Of a stretch of 64,000 bases of DNA, positions 11,348-49,143 are shown one piece after another. A program made the translations under genes and the position numbers. Origin of the DNA: Ricordea florida (taxonomy: Eukaryota > Cnidaria > Anthozoa > Corallimorpharia > Ricordeidae); contig OX453275.1 of the NCBI GenBank assembly GCA_949710005.1, positions 28,524,218 to 28,588,217 of the forward strand, read 5' to 3'. Positions within the stretch are counted from its first letter, which is position 1. Every line of letters begins with the position of its first letter. The notes below the pieces were generated by a model. The model saw nothing but the letters and a program-made list of their open reading frames with translations, was not told where the DNA came from and searched no databases.

Positions 11348-11353
11348 CCTGAC
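11348..11353. repeat. Polinton target site duplication, left copy
   Basis: CCTGAC directly precedes the AGTAGTAAGG terminus and is repeated immediately after the opposite terminus at 34631-34636. A 6-bp duplication is the known signature of Polinton/Maverick integrase. Confidence 0.95.
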
Positions 11354-12570: not shown

Positions 12571-12617
12571 CGTTCGTGTTGTGGAGGAGAAATGATAATC
12601 CGATGGATTCGTTGCTT

Positions 12618-12627
12618 CTTTTTTATA
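12618..12627 (-). promoter_or_regulatory. TATA box of the GRF gene
   Basis: TATAAAAAAG on the minus strand, 48 nt before the ATG at 12570. Confidence 0.6.
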
Positions 12628-12658
12628 CGTTTGAAAAGAAAACCAGTTGTTTTCCTGT

Positions 12659-15871: not shown

Positions 15872-15904
15872 ACAAATGAATCTTGGGTTCACCTTCCACT
15901 TTTT

Positions 15905-16471
15905 TTATTTTCTACAACGATTACTACAACATTGTTTTCTTGACACATTACATTGATTACAAGCCATGTCACGCATGGTTTGACGGCAACAACGACGACG
16001 ACGACGACGTGACAAATGATGTTTGATAAACGCTTCCACGTGCTTGTCGTTGGCTTGCTTATTGCTCGGGGTGAAACATTGTTCGATGGTTTTTAAACTC
16101 TTGCCTCTGGTTCGAAAATACAAATAATAAAGGCAATAATAACCACACACGGACGAATTGAGGGACTGCAGGGTTTTCTTGCTGCGTATGGTTCTTTTGT
16201 TTCCTTTGGCCAAGTACTTGGTGAAAGCATCCGTGTAAAAAGTGGGCGGCAGTCCGTAGCTATCAAAAAATTCGTTTTGGGTCTTGTCTGGGAAATACAT
16301 GGCAATCCAATGCTGTCCTGGTTGACTGGCAGGATCTGTATTGGCAATGAGGGAAGCGGGATACGTGCGGATTCGTTTGGGTAATCGATCGCTTGGAAAC
16401 ACACCCAAAAATGTCGAAGCAATGCACGGATCGCGCATACTTAATATCTTCAATTCGTTAGTGTGCAACAT
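15905..16471 (-). CDS. Adenain-like capsid-maturation cysteine protease
   Basis: 188 aa. The family triad is visible: GQHWIAMYF (His54, with the following Trp), EFFDSYG (Asp70) and the oxyanion Gln/nucleophile block LQSLNSSVCGYYC (Q102, Cys109). This is the C48/C5 (Ulp1/adenain) fold used by adenoviruses, Polintons and virophages to cleave capsid precursors. The C-terminus is basic and Cys-rich (RRRRRRCC ... CNQCNVSRKQCC), perhaps DNA-binding like adenain, which is activated by DNA. It lies 12 nt upstream of the ATPase frame and 5 nt downstream of the major capsid gene. Confidence 0.92.
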   Translation of the reverse strand: MLHTNELKILSMRDPCIASTFLGVFPSDRLPKRIRTYPASLIANTDPASQPGQHWIAMYFPDKTQNEFFDSYGLPPTFYTDAFTKYLAKGNKRTIRSKKTLQSLNSSVCGYYCLYYLYFRTRGKSLKTIEQCFTPSNKQANDKHVEAFIKHHLSRRRRRRCCRQTMRDMACNQCNVSRKQCCSNRCRK

Positions 16472-16476
16472 GGTGT

Positions 16477-17817
16477 TCAGGCCAGGTCATAGGTCACGTT
16501 CTTGTTCGCATCAATTTCCATGATGTCCACATACTCTCCGTAGACAATCAACGTGAACACTGCGCCGGTGGGTTCTACGAACACACCTTTTATGGTGATT
16601 TGTCCTCTGTACTCTGGATGCATGTGAAAGGCAGCCCCGCTTCCGTCTGGAGTTAAGTCCCACATGAACAGGGCAAATCCTTCAGACCAATCATTTCGTT
16701 TTATTTGCAGACCAGGGCCTCGGTGCATGGTGCCACCTCCTAACAGCAGTGAATTGTAACCATTCACATTACCATTGTCATCCAATTCAATAGCAGGGCT
16801 TGGATATTCTTCTCCATTGACTAACAGCTTCAATGATTTCAGACCATACAGCTGGAAATTAAAGGGGTTGCGATCTTTTTTACCCACGTAGGCATCGTTT
16901 CGTACCAACCCCACCACCACACGTCGGGGTATTTTGCCCAAGAACAGATCATTCTTCTGGAAGCTGGCTTGTCCTGAAGCAATGTTGTAGGCTTGCACAT
17001 CTCCTCTTTCCAAATGGTACAGAGCGGGTAAGGGTCGTGATACTCCTCTTCCTGTCATGATGTTCAGGTGCCTCAGACGCACGGAATCACTGATTTTCAC
17101 ATAACGTACCATGAATTCACAATCCACGATTTTCAGTTTTTCTGTACCAGCTGCTGACATGAGACAAAAGGCTTCCGAGTTGATGTCAATGCGTATGTTC
17201 ATGTCTACATTTCCCACCAGGTACTTGTCTGTGTGGAACAGAGCATGGGCAGGAGTGCCTTGCATTTGCACGATCTTGCTTGTATCAATGAACAGTTGTC
17301 TTGCTTTCAAGTTATCAACCTCCGCACCAGCAGTAGTGGGGGTTGTTTCTGTTAGCTCAAATTTTCCTGCTTCATCAAGGTACCACAACACACAGGTCAT
17401 GTACGATTCAGCGCTGTCGCTCGGATAACTCAGCAAATTTTCAATGTAAGCTTTGTAGGCATAGGTGTCATTTTGTTGAGTGACCAGCGTGTTGTTGAGC
17501 TTGATGGACATCTGCTTGATGATGCTGTGCATGAAATTGTTGACTGGGATGCATTTCTTGTCATCAAGACTATCGCCATTTTCTTTGGTGACTTTGACCT
17601 TGAATTTAATGTAACACTTGGACAGGTCAATGTAGTCGGGCGTTGTTTCAATGTTGAATTCAATGGGACTCCCACGCTGAATTCTTGCTTCGGGATGATA
17701 CGGTTGCCAACGAGCACTTAGGACCGATGTGTCAGTAGGCGGTAACTCGAACAATTCCAAAGCAGAATTTCCACCATACTCTGAGGCATAGTGTTTAGTA
17801 GTTTGCTCTAAAATCAT
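16477..17817 (-). CDS. Major capsid protein, double jelly-roll type
   Basis: 446 aa from the ATG at 17817 (the frame is open a little further up, but without ATG). The start region EYGGNSALELFELPPTDTSVL and the blocks PIEFNIETTPDYIDLSKCYI, VNNFMHSIIKQMSIKLNNTL and AYIENLLSYPSDS are those of the Polinton/Maverick hexon family, often labelled F54H12.2-like in animal genomes. Secondary structure looks all-beta. It would build the icosahedral shell with the minor proteins nearby. A TATAAAAA box on the minus strand at 17859-17868 lies 45 nt before the ATG. Placement next to protease and ATPase supports the call. Confidence 0.92.
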   Translation of the reverse strand: MILEQTTKHYASEYGGNSALELFELPPTDTSVLSARWQPYHPEARIQRGSPIEFNIETTPDYIDLSKCYIKFKVKVTKENGDSLDDKKCIPVNNFMHSIIKQMSIKLNNTLVTQQNDTYAYKAYIENLLSYPSDSAESYMTCVLWYLDEAGKFELTETTPTTAGAEVDNLKARQLFIDTSKIVQMQGTPAHALFHTDKYLVGNVDMNIRIDINSEAFCLMSAAGTEKLKIVDCEFMVRYVKISDSVRLRHLNIMTGRGVSRPLPALYHLERGDVQAYNIASGQASFQKNDLFLGKIPRRVVVGLVRNDAYVGKKDRNPFNFQLYGLKSLKLLVNGEEYPSPAIELDDNGNVNGYNSLLLGGGTMHRGPGLQIKRNDWSEGFALFMWDLTPDGSGAAFHMHPEYRGQITIKGVFVEPTGAVFTLIVYGEYVDIMEIDANKNVTYDLA

Positions 17818-22714: not shown

Positions 22715-23839
22715 TTATGCTTTCTTCATGTAAGCGGCTGGGATCCATTGATCGTACTTGCTCGGCCAACCTCTCCAACGTACCAAGTATTCTTTCTTCC
22801 GTCCTACCCCTTTCGTTTTCAGGATTTTTTCCACTTTAAAAAAATCATCTTCTTTCACCCGAACTCGTTCCAGTTCTTGTTCGTAGAATGTTCCTTTTAT
22901 TTTTGAACCGTCATACTCCTTTATTCGATACACGGGGGGTATTCTACGCAATCGTTGAGCCACCGTAAACACTTCTTCTGTCCAATTAGGTGTATACCCT
23001 TTTTTGAAAATACCTTTCTTTTTCGAGATGCGTACTTGATCGCCGACTTTAAACTTGTACCGGATTCGTTTCGTTCGCTTTACAAAATCGTCACCGTACA
23101 AACGACGCCAGACGTCTTGAGCATTTGCAGGGGTTACTAAGTTCGGTGCAGTCCCAATACTGCGATGTCTCGAACTATTGTAACTATCCACTAAATCGTC
23201 CAAATCGTCCAGGTAACGGTAACTATTTACCTGTGTAAAAAACCGCCACATGCGTGTCTTCAACGTTCTATTAAAACGTTCCACGATTTGGGCTTTGGTT
23301 TCGTTATACGTGACAAAATGTTGCACCCCTTTGGATTGCAAGAACTTTTGAAACTGTTGATTTGTAAATTCCGTCCCTTCATCCGTCTGCAATCGATCAG
23401 GGATGCGTTCATCTTGTTCAAAGATGCTATCAAACGCCTTCACTAAATTTTTACCCGTCTTGTCTTTCAAAGGCACCACCCAGGCATATTTGGACAGAAC
23501 GTCAATGACGGTCAAGAGGTAACGAAACCCATCATTTTCGTCTTTTAATGCTTGCACGTCCACAAGATCCGCTTGCCATTGTTCGTCCATTCCGTTCACC
23601 ACCACACGATTACGTTTAAAGCGTTTTCGGACAGGTTTGTGCAATGTATACGGTACTTGGGATTCGAGCCATTTTCTTGTTATGGATGGCTTGATTCCTT
23701 TTGCGCGAGCAGCATCGACTAATCGCTTGACGCCAACAAAAGCAGCAGGTTCTCCTGGGCTGTAGTACACTTTGCGAAGTACCGGTAATGATTGTCTTTC
23801 CGTCTTCCATTTCTTCTTCTTCACACTCGTCGTGGCCAT
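22715..23839 (-). CDS. Retrovirus-like integrase with chromodomain
   Basis: 374 aa from the ATG at 23839. The catalytic core has D91 (QWQADLVDVQ), D153 (LQTDEGTEF) and E187 (KAQIVERFNRT), the DDE triad of the Polinton/Ginger/retroviral integrase fold. A C-terminal SH3-like part (RYKFKVGDQVRISKKKG) is followed by a chromodomain (FKVEKILKTKG ... EYLVRWRGWPSKYDQWIP). It cuts and joins the element termini into host DNA with a 6-bp stagger, matching the CCTGAC duplication. The N-terminus lacks a clear HHCC finger. The frame is open upstream without ATG. Confidence 0.93.
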   Translation of the reverse strand: MATTSVKKKKWKTERQSLPVLRKVYYSPGEPAAFVGVKRLVDAARAKGIKPSITRKWLESQVPYTLHKPVRKRFKRNRVVVNGMDEQWQADLVDVQALKDENDGFRYLLTVIDVLSKYAWVVPLKDKTGKNLVKAFDSIFEQDERIPDRLQTDEGTEFTNQQFQKFLQSKGVQHFVTYNETKAQIVERFNRTLKTRMWRFFTQVNSYRYLDDLDDLVDSYNSSRHRSIGTAPNLVTPANAQDVWRRLYGDDFVKRTKRIRYKFKVGDQVRISKKKGIFKKGYTPNWTEEVFTVAQRLRRIPPVYRIKEYDGSKIKGTFYEQELERVRVKEDDFFKVEKILKTKGVGRKKEYLVRWRGWPSKYDQWIPAAYMKKA

Positions 23840-24112
23840 CGGAAATTTCAATGACAACCCCTTGACAACAGGCAACGTGACACCGAATACGTTTAAACAA
23901 GTTTTTCAACAAAATGGATGGTAGAGATCCACGTCCTAAGCAAGGCATTGTACAACTAAATAAAGTTGATCCTCTGAACTGTGTTTTATTACATTCTCAT
24001 GTAATTATAAAAATACATCATCACCAACCATGGTAAACTGGGAAGTGTCATATCTTGGTCTATCAATCACTCCAGTATGACATGTTTTCGTTTCACAGGT
24101 AATGTTAGAAAG

Positions 24113-24505: not shown

Positions 24506-27500
24506 TCAATATCCGTAGGGTAATGTGTCAAAATCGTTTTTGATCACACGCTTATCGTACACCAATTTATATTTCTTGTCTTGGGATTGCGTCACCAATT
24601 GTTTGTTTTTCGTATCACGTACAATCTTGTGAGGGTTATGAACAGTGACAGGTTCACAGTCATTGGCCCGTACCATGGTTGCCATGGTACGAAAGTTCAC
24701 TTTCTCGGTAGTACGAACATTTAACGTGAATCCACGCACTTTACACACAACGTTTCCCTTGTGTGTTTTGTAGGCATAATTCTTAGGACCTGCCGAAACA
24801 AAGGCGGCAATGTAATCATCGTCACTCAGTTCATTGGTAAGTTCACCCAAATAATCACCCAATGAGGGTTCCCACTGTCCTTCTTCCGATACATAAACAA
24901 GACTGTCTGTATCGTAATAACACACTCTTTGACCCAGTTTGGCCATCACACGGTACAATTTAATTCTAGCTTGAGCTGTCGTGAAGGCTGCCAAAACAAC
25001 ATTAGTTCTGTCCGAAGCTTCCACAAAATCATTTTCTAACGCATAACACACTTCCACCATGTCCTCGGAAACAAGATGAACATCTTTCACATTCACGCTA
25101 GCACTAGTGAACAACTCAAAATAGCGTTTTGGTTCATTCACCACTTCCAACTTGGGTCTGTTGGGGCGTTGTCCTAATTTTCCCCACATGTTGTTGAGTA
25201 TTTGTTTCCACACACTTCTGGCTCCTGCGTTATACTGAATCTTGTCCTTGTCCAGTAGAATCCCTTCGTGCTGACGATACTCTTCAATGTACTTGGCTTT
25301 GTCTTGATCGCTCTCACACCAGGAAGGCCACCCAGAGGCTTCCTGTTTCTTCTTTAGAAACATATCGATATAGTCTTTAAACAAAGTTTGACTTTTTTGA
25401 TCAAAATGCCATACTTCATGTAATCGCACCACCCGGTATCCCATCTCTCGTGCCAAATCCAGTTCTAGACTCACCCACGTCCCCGTAAAGGTTCTTTCTT
25501 GATCCGTATGTTCACAGGGGGTTTTTTGTAGTGTTTCTGCACAGGTTCGACACAATGCAAACATGAGTTTGTTGTTACACTTGAAGGGTAACACAGGGTG
25601 ATACAGTCCCCGGGGTGCAAGCACATCACATTTGATGACACCAAAATAGTCTCCAACCTGGGTAGGATTCAAATTGTCCGTGATTATCTGAGGATGTCCC
25701 ACAGGATACACTCCGTTTTTATTAATATCCGGATACAAACTTGTAAAGTCCACATACTTGATCTTCTTTCCTTCCACCAGCAATTTCGTGGCATTGGTAC
25801 GCCCCCCATAAAAGGCATCACGCGGGTTCAGGGGAGACACAAAGTTTAACCCATCCACAAATGCTTTCACGTCTTGGTTCTTTTTTAGGAGCTCTCGCCA
25901 CTGACATTCCCACATCTCCACGACACCAAACCCTTGCTTCTTCAAATAGTCAGTTCTTTCCAAGGTATGTTGATACAATTCATGCATCGAACAATTGTTC
26001 ACGGGGTTCACAGTGGTACCGGGAAAACATTTGATACAACCATGATAAAAGCAACCATGAAACTCATAAGCTGTGTTGGTAGCTTCACAATATCCATCCA
26101 ACAAATACGGTCCCACACGCTTCTCGCCTTCATTTCTACCGTGCCGAATCACTACATTATCTTGATGCGCCACATGCGCCAGCCATTGATAAGCGCAATG
26201 CGATTGATTAGCTGTCTTTCTGTACCCCAAATGAGGAATAATGGCAATGGTGTTCTCCTTCAAAAACATGGTACGAAAAATTAAATTGCATAAAGAGGCA
26301 ATGGTCATGCTTTCTTTGAAAGGGTGAATATGACATAACCCTTTCACCGTGTCTATAAAATGACAGCAACATCGCCGCAAAATGTCCACATCAGATCGAC
26401 AATAAGCCACAAGTTCTTCTTGCATATTAAACACCACCTTCTTTGTCTGTTGTTCTTGGTACCAGGTCAGGAACGCATCACGAGCTTCTGGTTTCATACC
26501 GTCAGGGTCATAGTGCTCAACATCCGGTATGGGTCCCACATAATGTTGGTTTTCTTCTGTATTGAAGAAATGGGGGAAATAGCCTTTCTTGAGTTCTTTC
26601 ATGCCAAATGTTTTGGGTAACTTTGACAGCGGCATAGGAAAAAAATTTAAACTGTCAATAAAACGCACATTCACATCCGGTACTCGCATTTCCATGATCT
26701 TGGCACCATTCATGATGAGGGTTGGTTTCACATTGTTCTTATACAAATAATCCAAAATAAAATAAGAATCATAACCCTTAAAGTTATGGGCTATGCAGGT
26801 TGCTCCTGGCATCTCGTCAAACAGCCAGGAACAAAATGCCTCGCACGTTTTAAACACCCACTCCTTCCCGTGTTGATCTTGCACCACCACCAGATTAGGG
26901 ACATGGATTCCAGTGTCTTGGGTGCATTCAAAATCAAAAAATAAATAAGTGTCCTCATGTTCATCATCCTCTCTCTTTCTTTTCTTGCCTTGTTTGGGTA
27001 CTTGCATGAAACACTGATGATCCTTGTCGACAAACTTGTCACATATACGACACATCACTTCTCCACATTTATGTAAGTTGACATCCCGTCGAGTCCGGTC
27101 CAGCATTTTACCGCAATCTTTACACTTGAGATACTGTTTGCAAACAGAAATTCCACCCTGAGGTCCCATTCGACGATGATTCTCAAAACATCCAGGTCCC
27201 TGAAAGGATCTTCGGCAATAAGCGCAATAGATCCATGAGGATATATCACCACGACATCCTTCTTGAAAACAAGACAAACACTTCTTCTTACATCGATGAT
27301 GCCTTCCCTCTTCTGTGTTATATCCCTTTTCACATTCCAAACAATAATAATTGCGTCCCATGAATCCGGACATGGAGGTGATGAGATCATAATGACCATG
27401 ATGTAAATATAAATAAATCACTTTCTCCTGGGTGGGACCTTTGAAAATAATACTGTCAAAATGTTCCGCACTGACAATCACCAGCTGATAGTCGGTTAAT

Positions 27501-28150
27501 ACGGCTTGAAACTTCTTCGCCTCTTCAATACCACATGATTGTAGGGGGACGCCTGCTTTACGATGCAATTCCAAGGCTCTTGTTCTTTGAACAGGTCTAC
27601 CCTGATAGATCACATTATATTGGGGATCGTTCTCCAGTTTGGCCATGCCTACTACAATGGCTCTGGCCATACATAATTCATCGGGGTTCTTGATTCGAAT
27701 AAAACAGTGTTTGTCCTTCAAACGCTTGTTCATATTGATGACTTTCTTTCTTCCACTTCCGCTTGGAAGACGTACATGGACCAAGTTGATGTCAAACCTT
27801 TGATTGATGTACAATTCTTCATACGATTGTAATACCCGCTCCACTTCAAACATAAGCCTTTGATGAGTGAGTTCTTCCACAGGCATAAACGGTAAACTAA
27901 TGGGCGACTTCAAATCACGACTTTGCATAACAAAACGAATCTGATCTCGTTTATTCATACCACGCGTCACATCTTGAATCATCTTTTCCAACACATTGTT
28001 TAAATTGGTGATTCCTTCTTGGATATTCTTAGCACGTGGTGTGTCTATCGTCAAACTATAATCAATCCCAGAGGTATCGAATTTGGGAATGCGCCGCCGA
28101 CTTTGTTCTTTTAACTTATAGACTGCCCTTTGTTGTCCCCCAACTTGTTC
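24506..28150 (-). CDS. Protein-primed family B DNA polymerase
   Basis: About 1,214 codons after a likely 3' splice acceptor. Counting from the Leu/Thr at 28054, the exonuclease motifs are FFDFE (about 374), NFKGYD (about 424-429) and YCRSDVD (about 551-557). Polymerase motif A is DFTSLYP (about 769), B is the KQILNNMWGKLGQ block, and C is YYDTDSLVY (about 1060). A Cys/His-rich zinc region sits at about 237-350, and the YEFHGCFYHGC insertion typical of Polinton PolBs at about 663. It replicates the element from its termini by protein priming. There is no ATG upstream in frame before a stop; instead CTTTTTATTTCAG precedes 28151, so the first exon is elsewhere and was not found. Confidence 0.95.
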   Translation of the reverse strand, partial: EQVGGQQRAVYKLKEQSRRRIPKFDTSGIDYSLTIDTPRAKNIQEGITNLNNVLEKMIQDVTRGMNKRDQIRFVMQSRDLKSPISLPFMPVEELTHQRLMFEVERVLQSYEELYINQRFDINLVHVRLPSGSGRKKVINMNKRLKDKHCFIRIKNPDELCMARAIVVGMAKLENDPQYNVIYQGRPVQRTRALELHRKAGVPLQSCGIEEAKKFQAVLTDYQLVIVSAEHFDSIIFKGPTQEKVIYLYLHHGHYDLITSMSGFMGRNYYCLECEKGYNTEEGRHHRCKKKCLSCFQEGCRGDISSWIYCAYCRRSFQGPGCFENHRRMGPQGGISVCKQYLKCKDCGKMLDRTRRDVNLHKCGEVMCRICDKFVDKDHQCFMQVPKQGKKRKREDDEHEDTYLFFDFECTQDTGIHVPNLVVVQDQHGKEWVFKTCEAFCSWLFDEMPGATCIAHNFKGYDSYFILDYLYKNNVKPTLIMNGAKIMEMRVPDVNVRFIDSLNFFPMPLSKLPKTFGMKELKKGYFPHFFNTEENQHYVGPIPDVEHYDPDGMKPEARDAFLTWYQEQQTKKVVFNMQEELVAYCRSDVDILRRCCCHFIDTVKGLCHIHPFKESMTIASLCNLIFRTMFLKENTIAIIPHLGYRKTANQSHCAYQWLAHVAHQDNVVIRHGRNEGEKRVGPYLLDGYCEATNTAYEFHGCFYHGCIKCFPGTTVNPVNNCSMHELYQHTLERTDYLKKQGFGVVEMWECQWRELLKKNQDVKAFVDGLNFVSPLNPRDAFYGGRTNATKLLVEGKKIKYVDFTSLYPDINKNGVYPVGHPQIITDNLNPTQVGDYFGVIKCDVLAPRGLYHPVLPFKCNNKLMFALCRTCAETLQKTPCEHTDQERTFTGTWVSLELDLAREMGYRVVRLHEVWHFDQKSQTLFKDYIDMFLKKKQEASGWPSWCESDQDKAKYIEEYRQHEGILLDKDKIQYNAGARSVWKQILNNMWGKLGQRPNRPKLEVVNEPKRYFELFTSASVNVKDVHLVSEDMVEVCYALENDFVEASDRTNVVLAAFTTAQARIKLYRVMAKLGQRVCYYDTDSLVYVSEEGQWEPSLGDYLGELTNELSDDDYIAAFVSAGPKNYAYKTHKGNVVCKVRGFTLNVRTTEKVNFRTMATMVRANDCEPVTVHNPHKIVRDTKNKQLVTQSQDKKYKLVYDKRVIKNDFDTLPYGY

Positions 28151-28163
28151 ACTGAAATAAAAA
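28151..28163 (-). promoter_or_regulatory. Probable 3' splice acceptor of the polymerase exon
   Basis: On the minus strand CTTTTTATTTCAG lies immediately before the open polymerase frame. The conserved-looking N-terminal stretch (GGQQRAVYKLKEQSRRRIPK) lies between this site and any downstream start codon, so splicing is more likely than an internal start. Confidence 0.5.
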
Positions 28164-28166
28164 GAT

Positions 28167-28718
28167 TCACATTAAGTCTTCGAGCAACTTATCCACATCA
28201 AAAGTAACAGGATCAACTTGCCCTTGTAAAGCGTTATCATCATCATCATCATCATCTATAACAACAGTTGTAACACCATGATCGTCTGGTTCCTGTTGTG
28301 CTTCCATTTGAGTGACCGCTTGTAACAACTCATCGTCATTCACGGCAGGTGTAATCATCTCTCCATCAACCATTAACCCCAGTAAAATCTCTCGTCTGTC
28401 AGAACGACAAAACTGGCGAATCACCCATCTCGAATCGAAACAAGTGAATTGATGAAGTGTAAATCCCAATGCTACACAAGACTGCATCCAAGGTTGAATC
28501 ACATCACCTGGTTTTACACATTCCAAAGCCTTGGTCATAAACATCGTGATCATTTCTTCATCGGCTAGTTGACACGTCCGATGATCCTCCATGTATGGGG
28601 TCCTATGGGAACACCCATAACACGCTTCATTTGCCAAACACTTGACTCTGTTCCACACATGCTCACAATACACACGCCAGAACTGGGCTTCCATAGTCTC
28701 TTTACTTTCTTGATCCAT
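28167..28718 (-). CDS. Cys/His small protein, acidic C-terminus
   Basis: 183 aa from the ATG at 28718 (MDQESKETMEAQFW). A compact block, VWNRVKCLANEACYGCS ... DHRTCQLADEE, has the spaced Cys/His pattern (CxxC-type, then H..C) found in a short protein recurring in Polintons; it may bind zinc. The C-terminus has a seven-Asp run and ends DVDKLLEDLM. Function unknown. A TATAAAAAG box (28772-28780) sits 54 nt upstream of the ATG, and the gene is divergent from the RING gene. Confidence 0.65.
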   Translation of the reverse strand: MDQESKETMEAQFWRVYCEHVWNRVKCLANEACYGCSHRTPYMEDHRTCQLADEEMITMFMTKALECVKPGDVIQPWMQSCVALGFTLHQFTCFDSRWVIRQFCRSDRREILLGLMVDGEMITPAVNDDELLQAVTQMEAQQEPDDHGVTTVVIDDDDDDDNALQGQVDPVTFDVDKLLEDLM

Positions 28719-28834: not shown

Positions 28835-28911
28835 AGCCCAAAAGAGGGGGGTGGGGGGTACCCCCTATTAAAAAACAGGCAAACCAGTCAAACCGGTTTT
28901 AAAACCGGTTT
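28835..28911. promoter_or_regulatory. Divergent promoter core with palindrome
   Basis: Between the two opposed TATA boxes lie a G-rich run (about 28845-28858), a short C-run, and a perfect palindrome centred at 28900/28901: AAACCGGTTT followed by TAAAACCGGTTT-like sequence, 22 bp in all (28890-28911), i.e. two ACCGGT sites. It may bind a dimeric regulator controlling both directions. Confidence 0.5.
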
Positions 28912-28922
28912 TTTCAAAAACG

Positions 28923-28930
28923 TATATAAG
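28923..28930 (+). promoter_or_regulatory. TATA box of the RING gene
   Basis: TATATAAG, about 104 nt upstream of the ATG at 29034; the likely start of transcription is about 28955, leaving a short leader. Confidence 0.6.
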
Positions 28931-29033
28931 GGATGACCCTGCTTCCAGTCGGTGTCTTTTCGTTCATCTCTTTGTAGGGTGAAGGTGATACAGGGTGGAA
29001 TTTGTTCCAGTGTTTTTTGTATTCAAAGTCAAG

Positions 29034-29337
29034 ATGCCCAAACGCAGATTGCAGAACCAAAGAGGTGTTGCCAAAAGACCAGCAACGTCTTCCAGCGACC
29101 CTGTATCGCCTTCGCCTTCTGAATCGGACATTGTGATCAATGCAATTAACGAAGCCGGCCCATCAACCAGTGTTGAACCTGTGACATCATCATCAACCAG
29201 TGCTGAACCTGTGACATCGTCATCAACCAGTGTTGAACCTGCGGCATCATCAACCAGTGTTGAACCATCCAGCGATGAACCCATGGTATCACGCGATGCT
29301 ATGACACCTCCTTCGAGTCCTGCCCCTGTCAATGATG

Positions 29338-29369
<32 letters not shown>

Positions 29370-29645
29370 GATAATAATAATAATGATGCTCCACAACCAC
29401 CACCACTTCGGAGAGAAGATCCTATTCCGGGAGAATGTTGCGTATGTTTCGAAGGTGAAGCAAGCCCACCAACACCCTGCTGTCGCAAACCGCTTTGTAA
29501 CCCATGCCTACAAAGATGGCTTCGTAACCGAAGGTTTGATTGTCCGCATTGTAGGGCTCGGTTCCCCAATGACTATTTGATCTCGTCGGAAGAGGCAACT
29601 GATGCCCTATTGCAAGATCCGGAATTCCAGAGAAGGATCCGACTT
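29034..29645 (+). CDS. RING-finger constant exon of the tail-array gene
   Basis: 204 codons, ATG at 29034. The N-terminus is basic (MPKRRLQNQRG). Four imperfect repeats of about 10 residues follow (TSVEPVTSSS, TSAEPVTSSS, TSVEPAASS, TSVEPSSDE), then an Asp/Asn run, then a RING at about residues 135-180: CCVCFEGEASPPTPCCRK, PLCNPCLQRWL, FDCPHCRARF. RING domains recruit ubiquitin-conjugating enzymes, so this is a likely viral E3 ligase. The exon ends exactly after a Leu codon at a strong donor (CTT|GTAAGT, phase 0). Without splicing the frame would run only 17 more codons. Downstream lie at least 15 phase-0 acceptors leading to different C-termini. Confidence 0.85.
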
Positions 29646-29739
29646 GTAAGTACATTCATTCTTACAGATCGTTTATCAATTGTATACGGTGATACATGAA
29701 CTTCGAGATCATCGCTGATATCTATATATTTTTGTTTAG

Positions 29740-29928
29740 ACATATAGCGAAATGTGTCGCTATGCATTAGACAAACAAAGAAGAAGAATGAAGACTTCAG
29801 ACATTGAATTGGGTGTGATGTTGTTATTATGTCGGGTTTTACATATTGGTCCAGTTCGCCGTTTATTTGCGCCTCCTAAATTAACTTGGTTTGAAAGAGC
29901 TTTTTTATTTGATTCTTTGATTGTTTGA
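29740..29928 (+). CDS. Tail exon T1 (62 aa)
   Basis: Acceptor TTTTTGTTTAG. Begins TYSEMCRYALDKQRRRMK; basic start, then a hydrophobic helix (GVMLLLCRVLHIG) and an aromatic end. With the donor at 29646 the intron is 94 nt. Stop TGA. No homologue recognised. Confidence 0.7.
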   Translation, partial: TYSEMCRYALDKQRRRMKTSDIELGVMLLLCRVLHIGPVRRLFAPPKLTWFERAFLFDSLIV

Positions 29929-29964
29929 TTTTGTACATAAGAAACGTTCGTTTTTTCTTTATAG

Positions 29965-30171
29965 GCATTGATTAAACTGAAAGCTGCAAAAGCAACACTT
30001 AACTATCAGCATAACTATCAACCACGCAATGTTCACCCTTATAGATTTTTTTTCAACTATTATGTAATTAAAGATCTTTTACAAGGTGTTTCGTCATGCA
30101 ATGAAGTTAGACGATATTCTTATGATGCCATGGTACTCGTATATAAGACGCTAAGAAAGTTTCATTGTTAA
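29965..30171 (+). CDS. Tail exon T2 (68 aa)
   Basis: Acceptor TTCTTTATAG. Begins ALIKLKAAKATLNYQHNYQP; Tyr/Phe-rich, basic, helical. Stop TAA, followed 17 nt later by AATAAA (30189), so transcripts choosing T2 may end here. Confidence 0.7.
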   Translation, partial: ALIKLKAAKATLNYQHNYQPRNVHPYRFFFNYYVIKDLLQGVSSCNEVRRYSYDAMVLVYKTLRKFHC

Positions 30172-30194
30172 TTATTATTATTATTTTTAAATAA

Positions 30195-30291
30195 AGAAAA
30201 GCAAAGTCATTTTTTTTGCATGTTGTGAGGTTAGGGGTGGCTGTAAGGGGAGGTTGGAGGCCACTCATAAAATGACTTTGCTTTTTTTTAC
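30195..30291. repeat. Hairpin-forming inverted repeat between T2 and T3
   Basis: Arms AAAAGCAAAGTCATTTT and AAAATGACTTTGCTTTT enclose a GA/GT-rich loop of about 60 nt (GGTTAGGGGTGGCTG and GGGGAGGTTGGAGGCC). It follows the T2 poly(A) signal and makes this the second-longest gap in the array. It may act as a transcription-pausing, insulating or small-RNA structure; only the geometry is seen. Confidence 0.6.
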
Positions 30292-30309
30292 TTTTATTTT
30301 TTATTTTAG

Positions 30310-30534
30310 GCACTGGATCATGTCATGGAAGCTCAAATGCGATTTAATTCTAAGATATACATACAAAAGGATCAAGAAACTATTTTAAGAATAACAGAAA
30401 CTATATTATGGCTAACAAGATTAAACTATTTACTTGTCAAAGCAAGTCAATATAGAATTGCGAGTCAATCTTTATTTGGAATACCTGAACCTTTTGATAC
30501 CGTCGAACTGAAAACATTGTTAGATATTGTATAA
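30310..30534 (+). CDS. Tail exon T3 (74 aa)
   Basis: Acceptor TTTTATTTTAG. Begins ALDHVMEAQMRFNSKIYIQK; amphipathic helices, then GIPEPFDTVELKTLLDIV at the end. Stop TAA. It opens like T2 (AL.. after the splice). Confidence 0.72.
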   Translation, partial: ALDHVMEAQMRFNSKIYIQKDQETILRITETILWLTRLNYLLVKASQYRIASQSLFGIPEPFDTVELKTLLDIV

Positions 30535-30559
30535 TTCAGTTTTTTCTATCTCTACACAG

Positions 30560-30658
30560 ATGATTCGTAACCTGGATGATTATTATTATAATAACCCGGA
30601 TTATGAACATTATTATTATGTACATGAAACGTTATCCAAATTACTCGTTTTCGAATGA
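30560..30658 (+). CDS. Tail exon T4 (32 aa)
   Basis: Acceptor TCTCTACACAG. Short and Tyr-rich: MIRNLDDYYYNNPDYEH, ending LSKLLVFE and TGA. The gap after T3 is only 25 nt. Shortest tail, so the least certain. Confidence 0.55.
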   Translation: MIRNLDDYYYNNPDYEHYYYVHETLSKLLVFE

Positions 30659-30681
30659 TAATCTTTTTTTCTTTTTTTTAG

Positions 30682-30855
30682 GCCTGTAGTCGTATGATAC
30701 ATGGAGGTTTAGTTACATACCATGTTTGTCCTGTATGTACGACAATTGACACGATTTATTCACTAAAACGCGGTTTTCATCGTTCATTAAATCTAGAAGA
30801 ATGGGATGCGTATATGATGTTTCTGCACAATGCACAACACATGTCTGACAATTAG
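30682..30855 (+). CDS. Tail exon T5 (57 aa)
   Basis: Acceptor CTTTTTTTTAG. Begins ACSRMIHGGLVTYHVCPVCT; a CPVC pair with an upstream Cys and several His (GFHRSL, FLHNAQHM) could form a zinc site. Stop TAG. Confidence 0.68.
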   Translation, partial: ACSRMIHGGLVTYHVCPVCTTIDTIYSLKRGFHRSLNLEEWDAYMMFLHNAQHMSDN

Positions 30856-30867
30856 TTTATTCTACAG

Positions 30868-31095
30868 ACTTATTTCAACCTTCGAAGCCAGGATAGACTC
30901 AGAGCCATCCGCTTCAACAAGGCAAAACAAGATCTACATAACTGTAACAGCATGCTCGAAATATTAACCTCAAGATTACAATATCACGAACAATTTCAAC
31001 ATCGTAACGTGTTTAGCTTTTCTAGTAAAATTCTTTTTTATTCTGTCAAAGCGTATCGTCGATCTCTCGTTAAACAAATTGTTAAGTTCCTCTAG
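30868..31095 (+). CDS. Tail exon T6 (75 aa)
   Basis: Acceptor TTTATTCTACAG, only 12 nt after the T5 stop. Begins TYFNLRSQDRLRAIRFNKAK; strongly basic and helical (SVKAYRRSLVKQIVKFL end). Stop TAG. Confidence 0.7.
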   Translation, partial: TYFNLRSQDRLRAIRFNKAKQDLHNCNSMLEILTSRLQYHEQFQHRNVFSFSSKILFYSVKAYRRSLVKQIVKFL

Positions 31096-31164
31096 TTAAC
31101 TACGTAAACGATGATCGATTTCCACATTGCATAATAATATTTTTCTCTCTTTTTTTATTTTCAG

Positions 31165-31440
31165 CTAATACAAGCTGTTGAACGATTTAGCTTAAACATG
31201 AGATCACCCCGCTTCAGACATAATGTAATCGCAACAGCTACAAATTTAATCAGTATATTCACGTCTGTTATCGTTAATCGTGACGTTGGAAATTACGATC
31301 AAGCCATCGACAGTATTGACGAACATTGCGATCAAGTACACATATTACCAAACGATGTATGTTCTCTTTGTCAAATGGCCAAGAATTTGTTATGCCTTAT
31401 GGAAATCGATCCCCGTCTATTAATGTTTATTGATGAATAG
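31165..31440 (+). CDS. Tail exon T7 (91 aa)
   Basis: Acceptor TTTTTATTTTCAG. Begins LIQAVERFSLNMRSPRFRHN; helical, with CDQVHILPNDVCSLCQ in the second half and ending DPRLLMFIDE, TAG. One of the longest tails. LIQ- start resembles the IIQ-/ITQ- starts of T9-T11. Confidence 0.72.
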   Translation, partial: LIQAVERFSLNMRSPRFRHNVIATATNLISIFTSVIVNRDVGNYDQAIDSIDEHCDQVHILPNDVCSLCQMAKNLLCLMEIDPRLLMFIDE

Positions 31441-31482
31441 TCATCATCATCATCATTAATCATCGTTGTCTTTTTTTCATAG

Positions 31483-31596
31483 ACTATTATTCGTATAAAC
31501 GAAGAAATCATAGTTGCCAATGCAAGAAAAAAGAAGATATTAATTATGGCATCGTCTCTCTACGGTCCAGACTTTATTCGCTTTCTATACTATTAG
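31483..31596 (+). CDS. Tail exon T8 (37 aa)
   Basis: Acceptor TTTTTTTCATAG. Begins TIIRINEEIIVANARKKKIL; short helical tail ending FIRFLYY and TAG. Confidence 0.58.
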   Translation, partial: TIIRINEEIIVANARKKKILIMASSLYGPDFIRFLYY

Positions 31597-31682
31597 TTTT
31601 TTATTTTCTTTACGGTCATTTCAAGCAAATGCAAGAGCGCGAACAGAAAGACTCAACAATGAAGAGACATATATTCTTATTA

Positions 31683-31713
<31 letters not shown>

Positions 31714-31799
31714 AATATATACATTTTATTTATTTACAGTCAAATGCAAGAGTGTGTGCAGATGAAAATTCGTTTTTTTCGTTTTCTCATTTTTTACAG
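31597..31799 (+). other. Degraded segment in the tail array
   Basis: Contains a partial copy of CAAATGCAAGAG (about 31627) that returns at 31741, plus an (ATT)n microsatellite of about 40 bp at 31676-31712. It looks like a tail copy ruined by repeat expansion. T9 could also start earlier, at 31740, after TTATTTACAG, in the same frame. Confidence 0.45.
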
Positions 31800-31982
31800 A
31801 TAATCCAATCAATTGAAGCATGTACAAGTTTGTGTGTAGACAGATTCAACGAACCTAACGTAGAGGAATATATTCTATTCGACATTCTAGACATCTACGA
31901 TGATCTTTTAACTGCGAAACGAACGTTTCAAAACATGCTTCTTCCATCTTTGACAGATTCGTTTTCTTCGTTTTACAGATAA
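31800..31982 (+). CDS. Tail exon T9 (60 aa), duplicated family
   Basis: Acceptor CTCATTTTTTACAG. Begins IIQSIEACTSLCVDRFNEPN and continues with an acidic block (DILDIYDDLLTAKRTFQNML). First member of a four-member family (T9-T12) sharing QSI-(E/D)-x-C-x-S. Its stop TAA overlaps the first bases of T10, so one acceptor doubles as the end of this tail. Confidence 0.75.
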   Translation: MIQSIEACTSLCVDRFNEPNVEEYILFDILDIYDDLLTAKRTFQNMLLPSLTDSFSSFYR

Positions 31983-32122
31983 TCCAATCAATTGAAGATT
32001 GTGCAAGCTTTCTTTCGGCTAGATACGATTTAGAATATTTTTTAAATGTATCTGATAGAGTAAATAATACCTACGATGATCTAATGTCTCCGATAAGAAC
32101 GTTTCAAAACATGCTTCTTTGA
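31979..32122 (+). CDS. Tail exon T10 (47 aa), duplicated family
   Basis: Acceptor CTTCGTTTTACAG. Begins IIQSIEDCASFLSARYDLEY and ends SPIRTFQNMLL, TGA; clearly a sibling of T9 (same start and the same RTFQNML end). Confidence 0.75.
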   Translation: MIQSIEDCASFLSARYDLEYFLNVSDRVNNTYDDLMSPIRTFQNMLL

Positions 32123-32149
32123 CGGATTCGTTTTTTTCATTTTTTACAG

Positions 32150-32329
32150 ATAACCCAATCAATCGATGATTGTACAAGCTTTCTTTCGGATAGATACAAC
32201 GCACCACCTATTTTACATGAATCTGATATAGTAAACATTGAACGCATTCACAGTGACTTGAGTTTGTATCGTTCTTTAAGAATATTTGACATAGACTACT
32301 TCCACTTTTCTTCTAGACCCGTGATTTGA
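32150..32329 (+). CDS. Tail exon T11 (59 aa), duplicated family
   Basis: Acceptor TTTTTCATTTTTTACAG. Begins ITQSIDDCTSFLSDRYNAPP; shares ESDIVNIE and DLSLYRSL with T12. Ends FHFSSRPVI, TGA. Confidence 0.75.
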   Translation: MTQSIDDCTSFLSDRYNAPPILHESDIVNIERIHSDLSLYRSLRIFDIDYFHFSSRPVI

Positions 32330-32349
32330 GATTTCGTTTTTTTCTGCAG

Positions 32350-32520
32350 ATGCTTCGGTCAATTGATGACTGTAAAAGTTTTCTTATGGACAGATACCAC
32401 AATCCCAATGTCACTGAATCTGATTTTATAGAGATTGAATTATTTTACGGTGACTTGATGTTGTATCGTTCGTTACACACGTTTCAATTTTTAATTCCTT
32501 TACCAGACGAGGATGATTAA
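32350..32520 (+). CDS. Tail exon T12 (56 aa), duplicated family
   Basis: Acceptor CGTTTTTTTCTGCAG. Begins MLRSIDDCKSFLMDRYHNPN, with ESDFIEIELFYGDLMLYRSL and an acidic end (PLPDEDD). Sibling of T11. Stop TAA. Confidence 0.75.
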   Translation: MLRSIDDCKSFLMDRYHNPNVTESDFIEIELFYGDLMLYRSLHTFQFLIPLPDEDD

Positions 32521-32546
32521 AAAAAATCACTATATATTTTTTTCAG

Positions 32547-32798
32547 GATGATGATAGTGATGGAGACAGTGTCTTTGACGAAGTCTCTTCATTGTCCTCC
32601 GAATTCTCTTTCGAGTCTTTCGAGGTAGATTCTATGTGTGATTGCGATCTTTGTGACGATTTGAATGATGTTGATCACCATTACCATTGTGGTTGTGATT
32701 GTGATTATTGTTACCACATGTACGATGAATTAGGTCATTGCGATTGCAAAGAATGTATTGATGTGTTCTGGTACATAGGTTCTATACCCCTAGAGTAA
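32547..32798 (+). CDS. Tail exon T13 (83 aa), Asp-start and Cys-rich
   Basis: Acceptor ATTTTTTTCAG. Begins DDDSDGDSVFDEVSSLSS; then a dense Cys/His region (MCDCDLC, HHYHCGCDCDYCYH, HCDCKEC) that could bind several metal ions. Stop TAA. Confidence 0.7.
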   Translation, partial: DDDSDGDSVFDEVSSLSSEFSFESFEVDSMCDCDLCDDLNDVDHHYHCGCDCDYCYHMYDELGHCDCKECIDVFWYIGSIPLE

Positions 32799-32819
32799 AT
32801 TTTTTACTCTTTTTTTTAG

Positions 32820-32948
32820 GACATTAGTGATGATGATGATGATGATGATTATACACATATCAGCGAAGAAAGTTGGGAAGTGGAAATGTCCCTTCCAGAA
32901 CTAGAACAATGGGAACTAATCATAAAAATCAAACCACCCCAATCCTAG
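32820..32948 (+). CDS. Tail exon T14 (42 aa), Asp-start
   Basis: Acceptor CTTTTTTTTAG. Begins DISDDDDDDDYTHISEESWE; acidic, ends IIKIKPPQS, TAG. The Asp-start links it with T13 and T15. Confidence 0.65.
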   Translation, partial: DISDDDDDDDYTHISEESWEVEMSLPELEQWELIIKIKPPQS

Positions 32949-32974
32949 TATGAATATTATATTACTTTTTTTAG

Positions 32975-33292
32975 GACAATGATGATGACAATGATGATGA
33001 TGACTGTGATGATGATGATGAAGGGTACATGGTACCTTTTTTACGAGAACTTTGTCAATGTCCTTTTCAATGTACCCTATGTGAAATGCCAGAAGTTTGC
33101 ACGCATCAATGCATTCATTGTAGAGATTATCAAGTATATATTAGTTCCATGCATAGTTATTGCAGATGCAAGTTTTGCATCGCTTATCAAGCTTTCGAAC
33201 CGCCGAATCTTCCATTTTTCTTGTCGAGGCGTAAGTTCAAATCGTTATTCTATACGTTTAGTAAAATTCCATCCATGTATGTTAATTATTAG
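32975..33292 (+). CDS. Tail exon T15 (105 aa), Asp-start and Cys-rich
   Basis: Acceptor ATTACTTTTTTTAG. Begins DNDDDNDDDDCDDDDEGYM, then LCQCPFQCTLCEMPEVC, THQCIHC and CRCKFC, a Cys/His pattern suggestive of two zinc sites, and a basic end (FLSRRKFKSLFYTFSK). Longest and last tail; followed by AATAAA at 33361. Confidence 0.72.
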   Translation, partial: DNDDDNDDDDCDDDDEGYMVPFLRELCQCPFQCTLCEMPEVCTHQCIHCRDYQVYISSMHSYCRCKFCIAYQAFEPPNLPFFLSRRKFKSLFYTFSKIPSMYVNY

Positions 33293-33355
33293 TTGTTATT
33301 GACTCATTAAAAAAAGTTTGGTTTTTTCACCTTCCATTTGTGTGTGCGTGTCTTT

Positions 33356-33366
33356 TATAAAATAAA
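33356..33366 (+). promoter_or_regulatory. TATA box of mini-gene 1, overlapping a poly(A)-type signal
   Basis: TATAAAATAAA: a TATA box 44-51 nt before the ATG at 33407, and also an AATAAA (33361-33366) that could end the tail-array transcripts. Both readings may apply. Confidence 0.5.
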
Positions 33367-33406
33367 TAAGGGTAACCCCATCCGATTCATTTCACATCCG
33401 AACATC

Positions 33407-33601
33407 ATGGTTAGAACACCACAAAGACGACTTCTTCAACGACGACGATCGCGATTCCCTCTTATCAGACACATAAGAAAACAATACGGAGAGGGACGAG
33501 TTGCTGCTAGACAACGAGGAGGAAGAAGAAGAAGAGTCAACTACAGACCCCCACCCTATCTTCAACCCTTTATTGGATCTTGGCGGCAACCTCGTTTCTA
33601 A
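33407..33601 (+). CDS. Arg-rich mini-protein 1 (64 aa)
   Basis: ATG at 33407; MVRTPQRRLLQRRRSRFP, RHIRKQYGEGR, RQRGGRRRRVNYRPPP, ending FIGSWRQPRF. About a third Arg. Twin of the next gene, including the leader (TTCATTTCACATCC before the ATG in both). Protamine- or core-protein-like composition suggests condensation of element DNA in particles; this is inference. A few Arg-rich peptides of adenovirus cores are a loose comparison. Confidence 0.65.
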   Translation: MVRTPQRRLLQRRRSRFPLIRHIRKQYGEGRVAARQRGGRRRRVNYRPPPYLQPFIGSWRQPRF

Positions 33602-33603
33602 AA

Positions 33604-33613
33604 TATAAAAAGG
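33604..33613 (+). promoter_or_regulatory. TATA box of mini-gene 2
   Basis: TATAAAAAGG begins 3 nt after the stop of mini-gene 1 and 47 nt before the ATG at 33651. Confidence 0.6.
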
Positions 33614-33650
33614 AAAAAACCTCATCCAATTCATTTCACATCCAAACACC

Positions 33651-33848
33651 ATGGCTACAAGAGCACAAAGACTTGGACGACGAAGACGATTCCCTCCTAT
33701 CAGACACAAAAGAAAACAATACGGAGGAAGAAGAATCAACTACAGACGACAACGAGGAGGAAGAAGAAGAACCAGAGCCAGTCTCGTCAACTTAGGACCC
33801 TTAAAACCCCCACCCTTTCTTGGATCTTGGCAACAACCCTATTATTAG
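33651..33848 (+). CDS. Arg-rich mini-protein 2 (65 aa)
   Basis: MATRAQRLGRRRRFPPIRHK, KQYGGRRINYRRQRGGRRR, ending PPPFLGSWQQPYY. Clear tandem duplicate of the preceding mini-gene: same RHxRKQYG, NYR, RQRGGRRR and GSW-Q-P words. It has its own TATA box. Candidate DNA-condensing core peptide. Confidence 0.65.
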   Translation: MATRAQRLGRRRRFPPIRHKRKQYGGRRINYRRQRGGRRRTRASLVNLGPLKPPPFLGSWQQPYY

Positions 33849-34630: not shown

Positions 34631-34636
34631 CCTGAC
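34631..34636. repeat. Polinton target site duplication, right copy
   Basis: CCTGAC, identical to 11348-11353. Confidence 0.95.
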
Positions 34637-36322: not shown

Positions 36323-43737
<7,415 letters not shown>

Positions 43738-46034: not shown

Positions 46035-49000
46035 CTACTGAATGACACATTTGTTACTAGCTCCCAATTCGAACTGACGCTTCAAGTTCCTGAGTTCTAG
46101 ATTGCCAGGATCTATTCTGAGTCCATAGTTACAAATCATGAGCCCCTCAGAGAACTTTTTACAGTTCAGCGTGGAAGTAGCGACGGTCACAAACACTTTG
46201 ATAAGGGTTTCTTTGCCAGGGCAGGAGAAAATTAAATCCAAGGTGGCAATCTCGTGCGTATCCATGGCAACAATGAAATCAAAGCACGCACTTACATTGT
46301 CGTCAACGAGGAGGTGGAGTTTGGCGCGTGCGCAGATGTCGCTAACAAGAGGAGGCCCGGATGTAATGGCTGATGTCATATCTTCAATGGCTTGGGGAAA
46401 AAGCTTAAGACGTTCAAAACACTTAGAACGCATGCGCAATGTCTCTTGCTTTTTGCCATCTGTGGCAACCATAGCGAGAGTTAAATAGCCCAACGCATGT
46501 TCATTTTGACAAGAGTCAGTGAACTCTTTAGCTCTTGCGATTGCCTCTTGAGATAGGCTTCGTTTCTGTGACAGATTCAAAGCTTTCAAAGCAAATTGCA
46601 GGGCTTCTGTATCGCTTTCGGCGACTCGCTTAAACTGCACAACTGCGCTTTGAACTTCGTTTAGTTTCATGCGAACAAGTCCACTTCGGCTAAGGACCGA
46701 AGTATCGTTCGGACACAGTCGCTCAGCGATGTCAAGCTCTTCGGCAGCTCTTCGGTAATCTTCGAAGATGATGAGTCCGTCGGCGTACATGCTATGATAC
46801 GATGCCGATTCACTGTCGGTTTGTACCAGCAAATGGCAGAGTTTAATGATGCACTTGGAACGGAAACCTCGTGAAAGGTAATGGGAAAATAGCATCTGAG
46901 CACAATCTTCCAAAGTACCCATGAGAAGACGTTTGTTATTTTCCGTGCGAGAGAGAATGAAGGTTTCCAGAGCTGGCAAACTTAGCAGCGAAGCCTGCAG
47001 CAAGTCTTGGTAGCTTTCCCTGAGTCTGTTCTTTTTCGAGTACAATAATCCTCGACTGCATAGGGCTTCTAAGCAGTTCGGTTTTTTTTCAAGAACTTTA
47101 TTGTAATCTGTTAAGGCCGCGTCCAATTCTCCTTTCTGGAACTTAATCTTTGCGCGCCAAAGATACGAGTTGAACGCACTGTCTGGGGAAGCGGCGGTGG
47201 ATACAGTAAAGTACTGTTCAGCAGAAGTATCGGAGGGACTGGCGTTGAATTTCTGTACTCCCTCGCAGTAGCCCTCGCGCGATATACGCTCGCGGTCATC
47301 CTCGTTTAATCTAAGAAGCAAACACGCGAGCATAGCCTCTCCAACTGTCTTCAGGAGAGTACAGATTTCCTCCAGCGCGTCCACACTTCCGCCTCTTTTC
47401 ATTTTAAACGCTGCCAAATGCAACCTGGCTAAATTGTCGTCAGGATTGTGTTTTATCAGTCGGACGAGAATGGCTTGCGCTTCATCCATCTTACATAACG
47501 ATTGCAGCACGTCTACGAAGACAAGGTGACAATCGACGTCCGTGGCAAACGCGCGAGTTAAGAGGTCACCGAGGCGGATAAGGGAAGCATTCTCGAGTGG
47601 TTGCTGGCCTTGATGTGGTTTCTGCACGGTGCTGACCAGATACTTATTTAGCTGAACTTTCAAATTCTCTTGTTCGCGGTCGGACAAGTCTAAAATCCAG
47701 GCAACACTTGCGGCAGTGGAGATTGCGCATGCAGACGAAAAGTATGTAGCAGCATTTTCAATCTTCCCATTCATTATACAAACAAACCCACAACCGCACA
47801 GGGCTTGTACAAAACTTGGCTGGATCTCAAGCGTCTTGTTAAAATCTGCAAGCGCACTGGACGCATCACTGATTTTCATGTAACAATACGCACGTGCATA
47901 ATGCGCTTTAGCACACTTTGGGCGGAGAGAGTGTGCCAAGTCAAGTACCCGGATGGCTTCTCTTTCTTTACCCTGCAGCTTCAAGCATTCTGCCGAATTC
48001 AACAACGCGTCAACATTGTTACCGTCCAGAAGATATAACAGACGGTACAACAGAGCGGCCTTATTGAGACTTTGAGCAGTAATTCTCGTGTCCACAGAGC
48101 AAGCGGTTTGCAGTCTGGTTTTTATACGACAGTGCGTGAGCAGTTCCGAGGCAAGACGCTTTGCTGAGTTGGCGATTTTCCCTTGTTGTTGCCGTGGCAA
48201 CAAAAGTACGGTAATGCGTGCTATCTCATCATCGATCGACAAGGCGGTGACGTAATCATTCAAGGCCAATTCCGTCTCCTCGAGAGCCAGGTAGCTGTGT
48301 GCTCTTTGAAGAAGAAGTTGCAGCGACTCTGTTGATACTCCTACCTGGTTGATGCCATCGGACAGAACACTTACTGCTTTCTTGAATTGTTTCAGTTTGA
48401 ACATGTGATCTGCGCAGTCTCTTAGCGTAGCTGAATCGTACGGGTTCAAACCGACTATAACCCGATCAAGTTTGACGAGAAGCTTTCTTTCTTCGTCGCT
48501 AAAGTCGTGTGCTTTACGCGTAAACTTTGCGGCAGTTTGGTACAACGCCTCTAACATAACAGGAATAAACTGCCCTTGAGTTTCTTTAGTGCATGTGACG
48601 CTGGCCTCAAAGTCCTTTTCAAAAGCAGTGATGAGGTCCTTAATGGCGTGCTTTCTTTCATTCAACAAGAGATACGCTACAGAGCGCTGGAGGAGCAGCA
48701 ATATCTCGTCTTGTAGATACGAAAATATCTTTAAGGCTTCCGAGCAACTCGTAACTACATCTAAGTAACTTTTCCTTCGCATTTGTAGTCTCAATCTTGC
48801 GGACCACGCTACCCGACTCTCAGGACGAAATCCAGGAGACGTAATAAGGTCGCAGATTTGTTCTAAAGATAACGCGATACCTGTCCGCTGTGAAAAGTCC
48901 ACTAAATCGCTGGCACATACACACCAGTCTTCGAGCGTGTTGAATACGATGTTCAAACTGTGCCGAGGGAGCCTGGCCATTTGGTCTTTCACAAGGCCAG

Positions 49001-49124: not shown

Positions 49125-49143
49125 ATCACAGACAGCAGTTTCT

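Follow-up and report, generated by a model that had tools for sequence, protein, structure and literature searches.

In Drosophila, the genes lola and mod(mdg4) join a common N-terminal BTB part to many alternative 3′ exons. Both are host genes that extend over much longer DNA, with tails that are mostly of the zinc-finger type, and they are partly trans-spliced. The locus described here lies in a 64,000-nucleotide stretch of contig OX453275.1 of the corallimorpharian Ricordea florida (assembly GCA_949710005.1, positions 28,524,218 to 28,588,217 of the forward strand; hereafter the window, with position 1 as its first letter). It belongs to a Polinton element and consists of an exon encoding a RING domain followed by 15 open segments, T1–T15. 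At the level of sequence, it resembles lola in having a common coding exon with its donor, many acceptors in a single phase, and a separate stop for each exon, whereas it differs from lola and mod(mdg4) in being a 4.3-kb viral unit with a median gap of 26 nt. Very probably, the single RING exon is combined with about 15 alternative terminal exons to yield RING proteins with differing C-termini, although the splicing itself is something that we infer from the DNA.

For adenovirus E1B, we know of no RING and of no array of terminal exons duplicated in tandem. It is comparable as a mode of working only, with one donor in a coding exon and several acceptors: the relevant part of the source describes, for E1B-496R/156R/93R/84R, a donor inside the coding exon and three acceptors that lead to different C-termini behind a common N-terminus of 79 residues, with 156R splicing back to the parental frame (PMC9663300). 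Compared with the three spliced products given there, the 15 tails of the Polinton array go well beyond in number and density. Among the matches listed for the open-access Polinton and adintovirus literature, the titles and abstract openings contain no report of a RING-plus-tails array, and the sole mention of splicing in the available portions of PMC11071296 concerns an iridovirus.

The common exon and the tails are arranged as follows.

29034–29645, plus strand: common RING exon, 204 codons, donor GTAAGT at 29646
29740–29928, plus strand: T1, 62 codons
29965–30171, plus strand: T2, 68 codons, first ATG at codon 56
30310–30534, plus strand: T3, 74 codons
30560–30658, plus strand: T4, 32 codons, ATG start
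30682–30855, plus strand: T5, 57 codons
30868–31095, plus strand: T6, 75 codons, weak acceptor
31165–31440, plus strand: T7, 91 codons, predicted helical bundle
31483–31596, plus strand: T8, 37 codons, phase 2 longer (76 codons)
31800–31982, plus strand: T9, 60 codons, paralogue of T10–T12, additional in-frame acceptor at 31740
31979–32122, plus strand: T10, 47 codons, paralogue of T9, T11, and T12
32150–32329, plus strand: T11, 59 codons, no ATG, paralogue of T9, T10, and T12
32350–32520, plus strand: T12, 56 codons, paralogue of T9–T11, additional in-frame acceptor at 32317, predicted helical hairpin
32547–32798, plus strand: T13, 83 codons, acidic start, Cys-rich
32820–32948, plus strand: T14, 42 codons, acidic start
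32975–33292, plus strand: T15, 105 codons, acidic start, Cys-rich, internal GTAAGT at 33231

The RING exon encodes, in this order, S/T/P/E-rich repeats, an acidic run, and the RING domain (residues ~134–177), and its disordered part includes tandem repeats of ~30 nt at 29161–29294, ahead of the acidic run. The phase-0 donor with which the initial annotation had ended this exon is present (CTT/GTAAGT, 29646), and the unspliced frame continues beyond it for 17 codons. All 15 segments that had been proposed downstream were recovered, each comprising an AG acceptor, a phase-0 frame of 32–105 codons, and its own stop. The gaps that separate a tail's stop from the following exon, claimed to be mostly 12–70 nt, do not exceed 70 nt in 12 of 14 cases (median 26 nt, one of the 12 being a 4-nt overlap), and the tails occupy 2889 of 3647 nt. 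Plus-strand donors of the GTRAG type are found within 28900–33500 only at 29646, at 30225 and 30243 in the T2–T3 gap, and at 33231 within T15, so that 14 of the 15 tails lack such a donor and therefore resemble terminal exons. The acceptor's own TAG is an in-frame stop in seven of the 15 tails, whose frames must therefore start exactly at the acceptor. As a separate observation, the GTAAGT at 33231 could serve to shorten T15 or to turn it into an internal exon.

The alternative-terminal-exon architecture is well supported because of the frame statistics, the missing start codons, the duplicated tails that have stayed open, and a pattern at the junctions. With a simple pyrimidine-tract score and a threshold of 10.5, 17 acceptors were found, and frames of at least 30 codons are open behind 14, 3, and 2 of them in phases 0, 1, and 2, respectively; these 14 phase-0 acceptors represent 13 distinct tails, since T9 contributes two of them (31740 and 31800), and T12 is entered via 32317. 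In 400 dinucleotide shuffles, the corresponding phase-0 count averaged 0.47 and never exceeded 3, in agreement with the earlier claim that such consistency of phase is hard to obtain by chance. At thresholds of 9, 10.5, and 12, the open phase-0 frames number 15 of 22, 14 of 17, and 9 of 10 acceptors, compared with shuffle maxima of 5, 3, and 2 (400 shuffles each). When 122 segments of equal length were taken from both strands of the window, the six highest counts (5 to 13) all belonged to segments overlapping the array and the next was 4, and the minus strand of the array itself has three acceptors, none of them open for 30 codons. By codon score, phase 0 is the best of the three plus-strand frames in 12 of the 15 tails.

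Residue 5 of T1–T12 is Met, Leu, Val, or Ile in 12 of 12 tails (9 of 9 with T9–T12 counted once; 12 of 15 over all tails), and a hydrophobic residue occupies position 2 in 11 of 12 and positions 4 and 7 in none. Taken as the best of ten positions, the residue-5 pattern was matched by three of 20,000 residue shuffles and by none of 20,000 random in-frame windows, and when the tails are read in either of the other phases, these four residues reach at most 8 of 12 at any position. The pattern is absent from T13–T15, all of which have an acidic start, T13 and T15 also being rich in Cys. On a helical wheel continued from the RING exon, the hydrophobic direction of the first 11 residues of most T1–T12 tails lies on the same side as that of the last 11 residues of the RING exon (136 degrees). 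Such agreement of hydrophobic faces is expected if the tails join the same upstream helix, and it is independent of the acceptor scoring, although the match is weak (V-test p ~0.025 over nine tails) and T2 does not fit. In single-sequence AlphaFold2 modeling, T7 is predicted to form five helices with a predicted local distance difference test (pLDDT) of 79.7 and a predicted template modeling score (pTM) of 0.67, and T12, modeled with its three paralogues, is predicted to form two helices (pLDDT 78.2, pTM 0.50).

T9–T12 are tandem duplicates, 37–59% identical in local alignments, whose frames survive differences at 318 of 819 positions (~39%). In a neutral simulation at 34–40% divergence over 42 codons, all four frames remained open in 5–36 of 5000 runs. 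Alignment gaps within the shared first ~45 codons are 3 or 6 nt long, and those immediately 5′ of the acceptors measure 2, 8, and 10 nt, none a multiple of three. The pairwise ratios of nonsynonymous to synonymous substitution rates (dN/dS) are 0.35–0.87. In the ten of 15 tails that were scanned, no domain exceeded the Pfam cut-off, the sub-threshold matches being to DUF2116 (0.055, T1) and DUF4215 (0.47, T7). Relatives of the tails were found neither by Pfam (10 of 15 tails), by NCBIfam (T7, T13, and T15), nor among PDB sequences (T15), with no larger protein search run.

A set of E3 ligases is the simplest function for the array since, in a search of PDB sequences, the RING matches RNF125 (8.8e-6 across the RING) as well as other E3 ligases. 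The initial annotation had proposed a family of E3 ligases with target-binding tails; the architecture of one shared exon with many terminal exons holds, and E3 activity and target binding stay at the level of a suggestion, as the RING match lies below the Pfam cut-off and the tails have no recognized domain. In the protein search, the RING had a single match (P0001, 222 residues, 99% identical), located on a separate 16.5-kb contig, which shows a further copy or allele; its frame likewise reads past the donor, and its acidic run is slightly different.

A number of observations weigh against the proposed architecture or the function assigned to it. The zf-RING_2 match (3e-4) reaches 21.4 bits, below the Pfam gathering score of 27.3, and the alignment places a lysine where RNF125 has a ligand histidine, along with an extra neighboring Cys. 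That near-identical copy is the only protein match of the RING, and no relatives of the array were found. The acceptor score was set by hand after the region had been viewed, and the set T1–T12 and its residue pattern were likewise picked after viewing the sequence. Among 12 decoy acceptors, three (31052, 31740, and 31891) also have Met, Leu, Val, or Ile at residue 5, and three more have Phe or Trp there; of these sites, 31740 is an in-frame extension of T9. When all six frames are considered, phase 0 ranks first by codon score in only nine of the 15 tails, with a minus-strand frame outscoring it in T6, T7, T9, and T13. Differences among T9–T12 fall on codon positions 1, 2, and 3 in the ratio 114/88/116 over 273 codon pairs, so the constraint is mild, and the gaps near their stops, where the tails end differently, are 2, 7, 18, and 21 nt long. 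There is no detectable sequence homology between T1–T8 and T9–T12. The predictions for T7 and T12 were made without an out-of-frame control fold.

Individual tails differ in how well they are supported, and this bears on a narrower form of the same architecture, overlapping with it, in which few acceptors are used and the others represent duplicates in decay or a stored set of tails, leaving only a small working family of proteins. Acceptor quality ranges from very strong (T5 and T7) to poor, as in T6, which has 10 of 17 pyrimidines and an AG within the tract and did not appear among the acceptors scoring at least 7. T1 (10.4) and the T12 site at 32350 (8.8) fall just under the threshold of 10.5. 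A phase other than 0 is open for longer in T8 (phase 2, 76 versus 37 codons) and T15 (phase 1, 108 versus 105). These five tails are the weak points in the count of 15. T9 does not end where T10 has its stop but reads on into the acceptor of T10, and seven of the 22 acceptors scoring 9 or above (30797, 31052, 31597, 31891, 31957, 32507, and 33229) are followed by fewer than 30 open phase-0 codons. Nevertheless, all 15 frames are open and the residue-5 pattern is kept even in T6 and T8, which leaves limited use of the acceptors rather unlikely.

It is improbable that the array works instead by leader splicing of the adenovirus late type, with each downstream protein starting at its own internal ATG and the RING absent from the products. 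The compactness of the array and its single donor facing many acceptors would suit such an arrangement, and an ATG does occur within the first six codons of five tails (at the start of T4 and T12, and at codons 5–6 of T1, T3, and T5). However, T11 has no ATG, and in the nine other tails the first one is at codon 12 or later. Leader splicing would also make the phase of the acceptors irrelevant, yet phase 0 is favored, and in most of T1–T12 the patterned residues, 2 and 5, precede the first ATG. Chance or decay, with T-rich spacers mimicking acceptors and frames open by accident, draws some support from the AT-rich region (GC content ~0.32–0.37), its poly-T and GAT runs, and the tails in which phase 0 is not favored by codon score, but shuffles of the same composition give at most 3 against the 14 observed, the T9–T12 frames survive ~39% divergence, and T7 is predicted to fold, so that this explanation is very hard to credit. 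Independent genes with their own promoters were rejected, the gaps being too short and early ATGs few, as were silent recombination cassettes, since no long repeats are common to all tails and each has its own acceptor and stop.

Candidate signals for the expression of an array of alternative terminal exons are located at the following positions.

28923–28929, plus strand: TATATAA, putative promoter element for the RING gene
30190–30300, plus strand: AATAAA (30190) and an RNA hairpin in the T2–T3 gap, which may serve in regulation or as a proximal poly(A) site
33306–33355, plus strand: ATTAAA with a GT-rich stretch behind it, candidate common poly(A) site closing the array

RNA folding of 30180–30310 gives a strong hairpin (22-bp outer stem, −37.1 kcal/mol, z −4.4) that overlaps this AATAAA, with none of 200 shuffles equally stable, and a 14-base piece of the hairpin arm is unique within the window. 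As ATTAAA also occurs at 29971, 30067, 30420, 30786, and 32516, and AATAAA at 33361, signals of the poly(A) type alone decide little.

Splicing, E3 activity, target choice, and poly(A) use, which we infer from these features, could be combined as follows. The array would form a single Polinton transcription unit, transcribed from close to the TATA box at 28923. About 15 acceptors would compete for donor 29646 of the first coding exon (disordered, acidic, RING), each of them opening a terminal exon with its own stop, and every resulting mRNA would specify the same RING head with a different tail. Candidate poly(A) signals are found after T2 and after T15. The amphipathic start common to T1–T12 could extend a helix in which the RING exon ends. 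Which acceptor wins might depend on the strength of its tract, on the proximal poly(A) site, or on the time after infection, and new tails would arise via local exon duplication, as T9–T12 suggest. The most likely function would be that of a family of RING E3 ligases with the partner chosen by the tail. That most tails are used as E3-targeting parts is put forward only tentatively. We can likewise speculate, with some reserve, that the array is a viral, splice-driven adaptor library in which a RING E3 head is provided with a growing, duplicating set of at least 15 exons directed at many host targets; isoform choice would then involve the competing acceptors, the two poly(A) sites, and the T2–T3 hairpin. 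Splicing one shared head to about 15 different ends would by itself allow a small virus to obtain an entire set of related proteins from 4 kb of DNA. If confirmed by transcripts, the array would be, to our knowledge, the densest of alternative terminal exons in any virus or mobile element, and would illustrate how a protein family can be encoded in a small genome with no separate promoter per gene. It would offer a compact system for studying how one donor picks among many acceptors, as well as a route to the host target proteins of the Polinton, which bear on whether Polintons are live viruses.

The element that carries the array has the following features.

11354–34630, unstranded: Polinton element, 23,277 bp, with terminal repeats, target duplication, and core genes
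24509–28171, minus strand: type B DNA polymerase (PolB; DNA_pol_B_2, 3.6e-47)
22715–23902, minus strand: integrase with rve (4.2e-16) and Chromo (6.2e-9) domains
15905–16483, minus strand: adenovirus-type protease (Peptidase_C5, 2e-5, 24.8 bits versus a cut-off of 21.3)
11668–12657, minus strand: GRF zinc-finger protein (domain match)

Its inverted terminal blocks, 11354–11443/34541–34630 (90 nt) and 11443–11589/34390–34536 (147 nt), are each 100% complementary, with a length difference of ~5 nt between them. The bounds are set by an identical six-base CCTGAC that flanks both ends (11348–11353 and 34631–34636; target-site duplication), and the element is probably a recent insertion. The inverted repeats, the 6-bp duplication, the polymerase, the rve and chromo integrase, and the adenovirus-type protease are shared with Polinton/Maverick elements such as the Rhodactis coral adintovirus (Eupolintoviridae), bearing out the original assignment. 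Matches to AAA and Pox_A32 (packaging ATPase) at 15209–15901 are both below their cut-offs, no double-jelly-roll capsid match exceeded the cut-off among the large open reading frames (ORFs) scanned, and further large ORFs of the element have no clear match.

Among the best 120 of 3283 protein matches of the polymerase, with identities taken over residues 350–1221, the closest are two proteins that are 71% and 67% identical, and the Rhodactis coral adintovirus (54%, over 81% of the query region), Dendronephthya (50%), and the hemichordate Ptychodera (50%) are also represented. No relatives were found in viral contigs queried with the RING, a degenerate DNA pattern of the RING, a single PolB, and an alignment of 21 PolB rows. 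The genome contigs scanned with the PolB alignment yielded only one distant locus, L001 (NZ_JRAA01000007.1), a 3.8-kb contig in the assembly of a Solemya velum symbiont with a polymerase that is 28% identical in the best segment; this is perhaps host DNA inside a bacterial assembly.

Downstream of the array, at 33407–33848, two adjoining small, very Arg-rich ORFs are similar to each other and, by eye, each follows a TATA-like stretch; they perhaps encode DNA-condensing core proteins. Host genes adjoin the Polinton within 37625–43734 and 46035–49391, with two plus-strand exons that match organic solute transporter alpha and a long TPR-repeat ORF on the minus strand.

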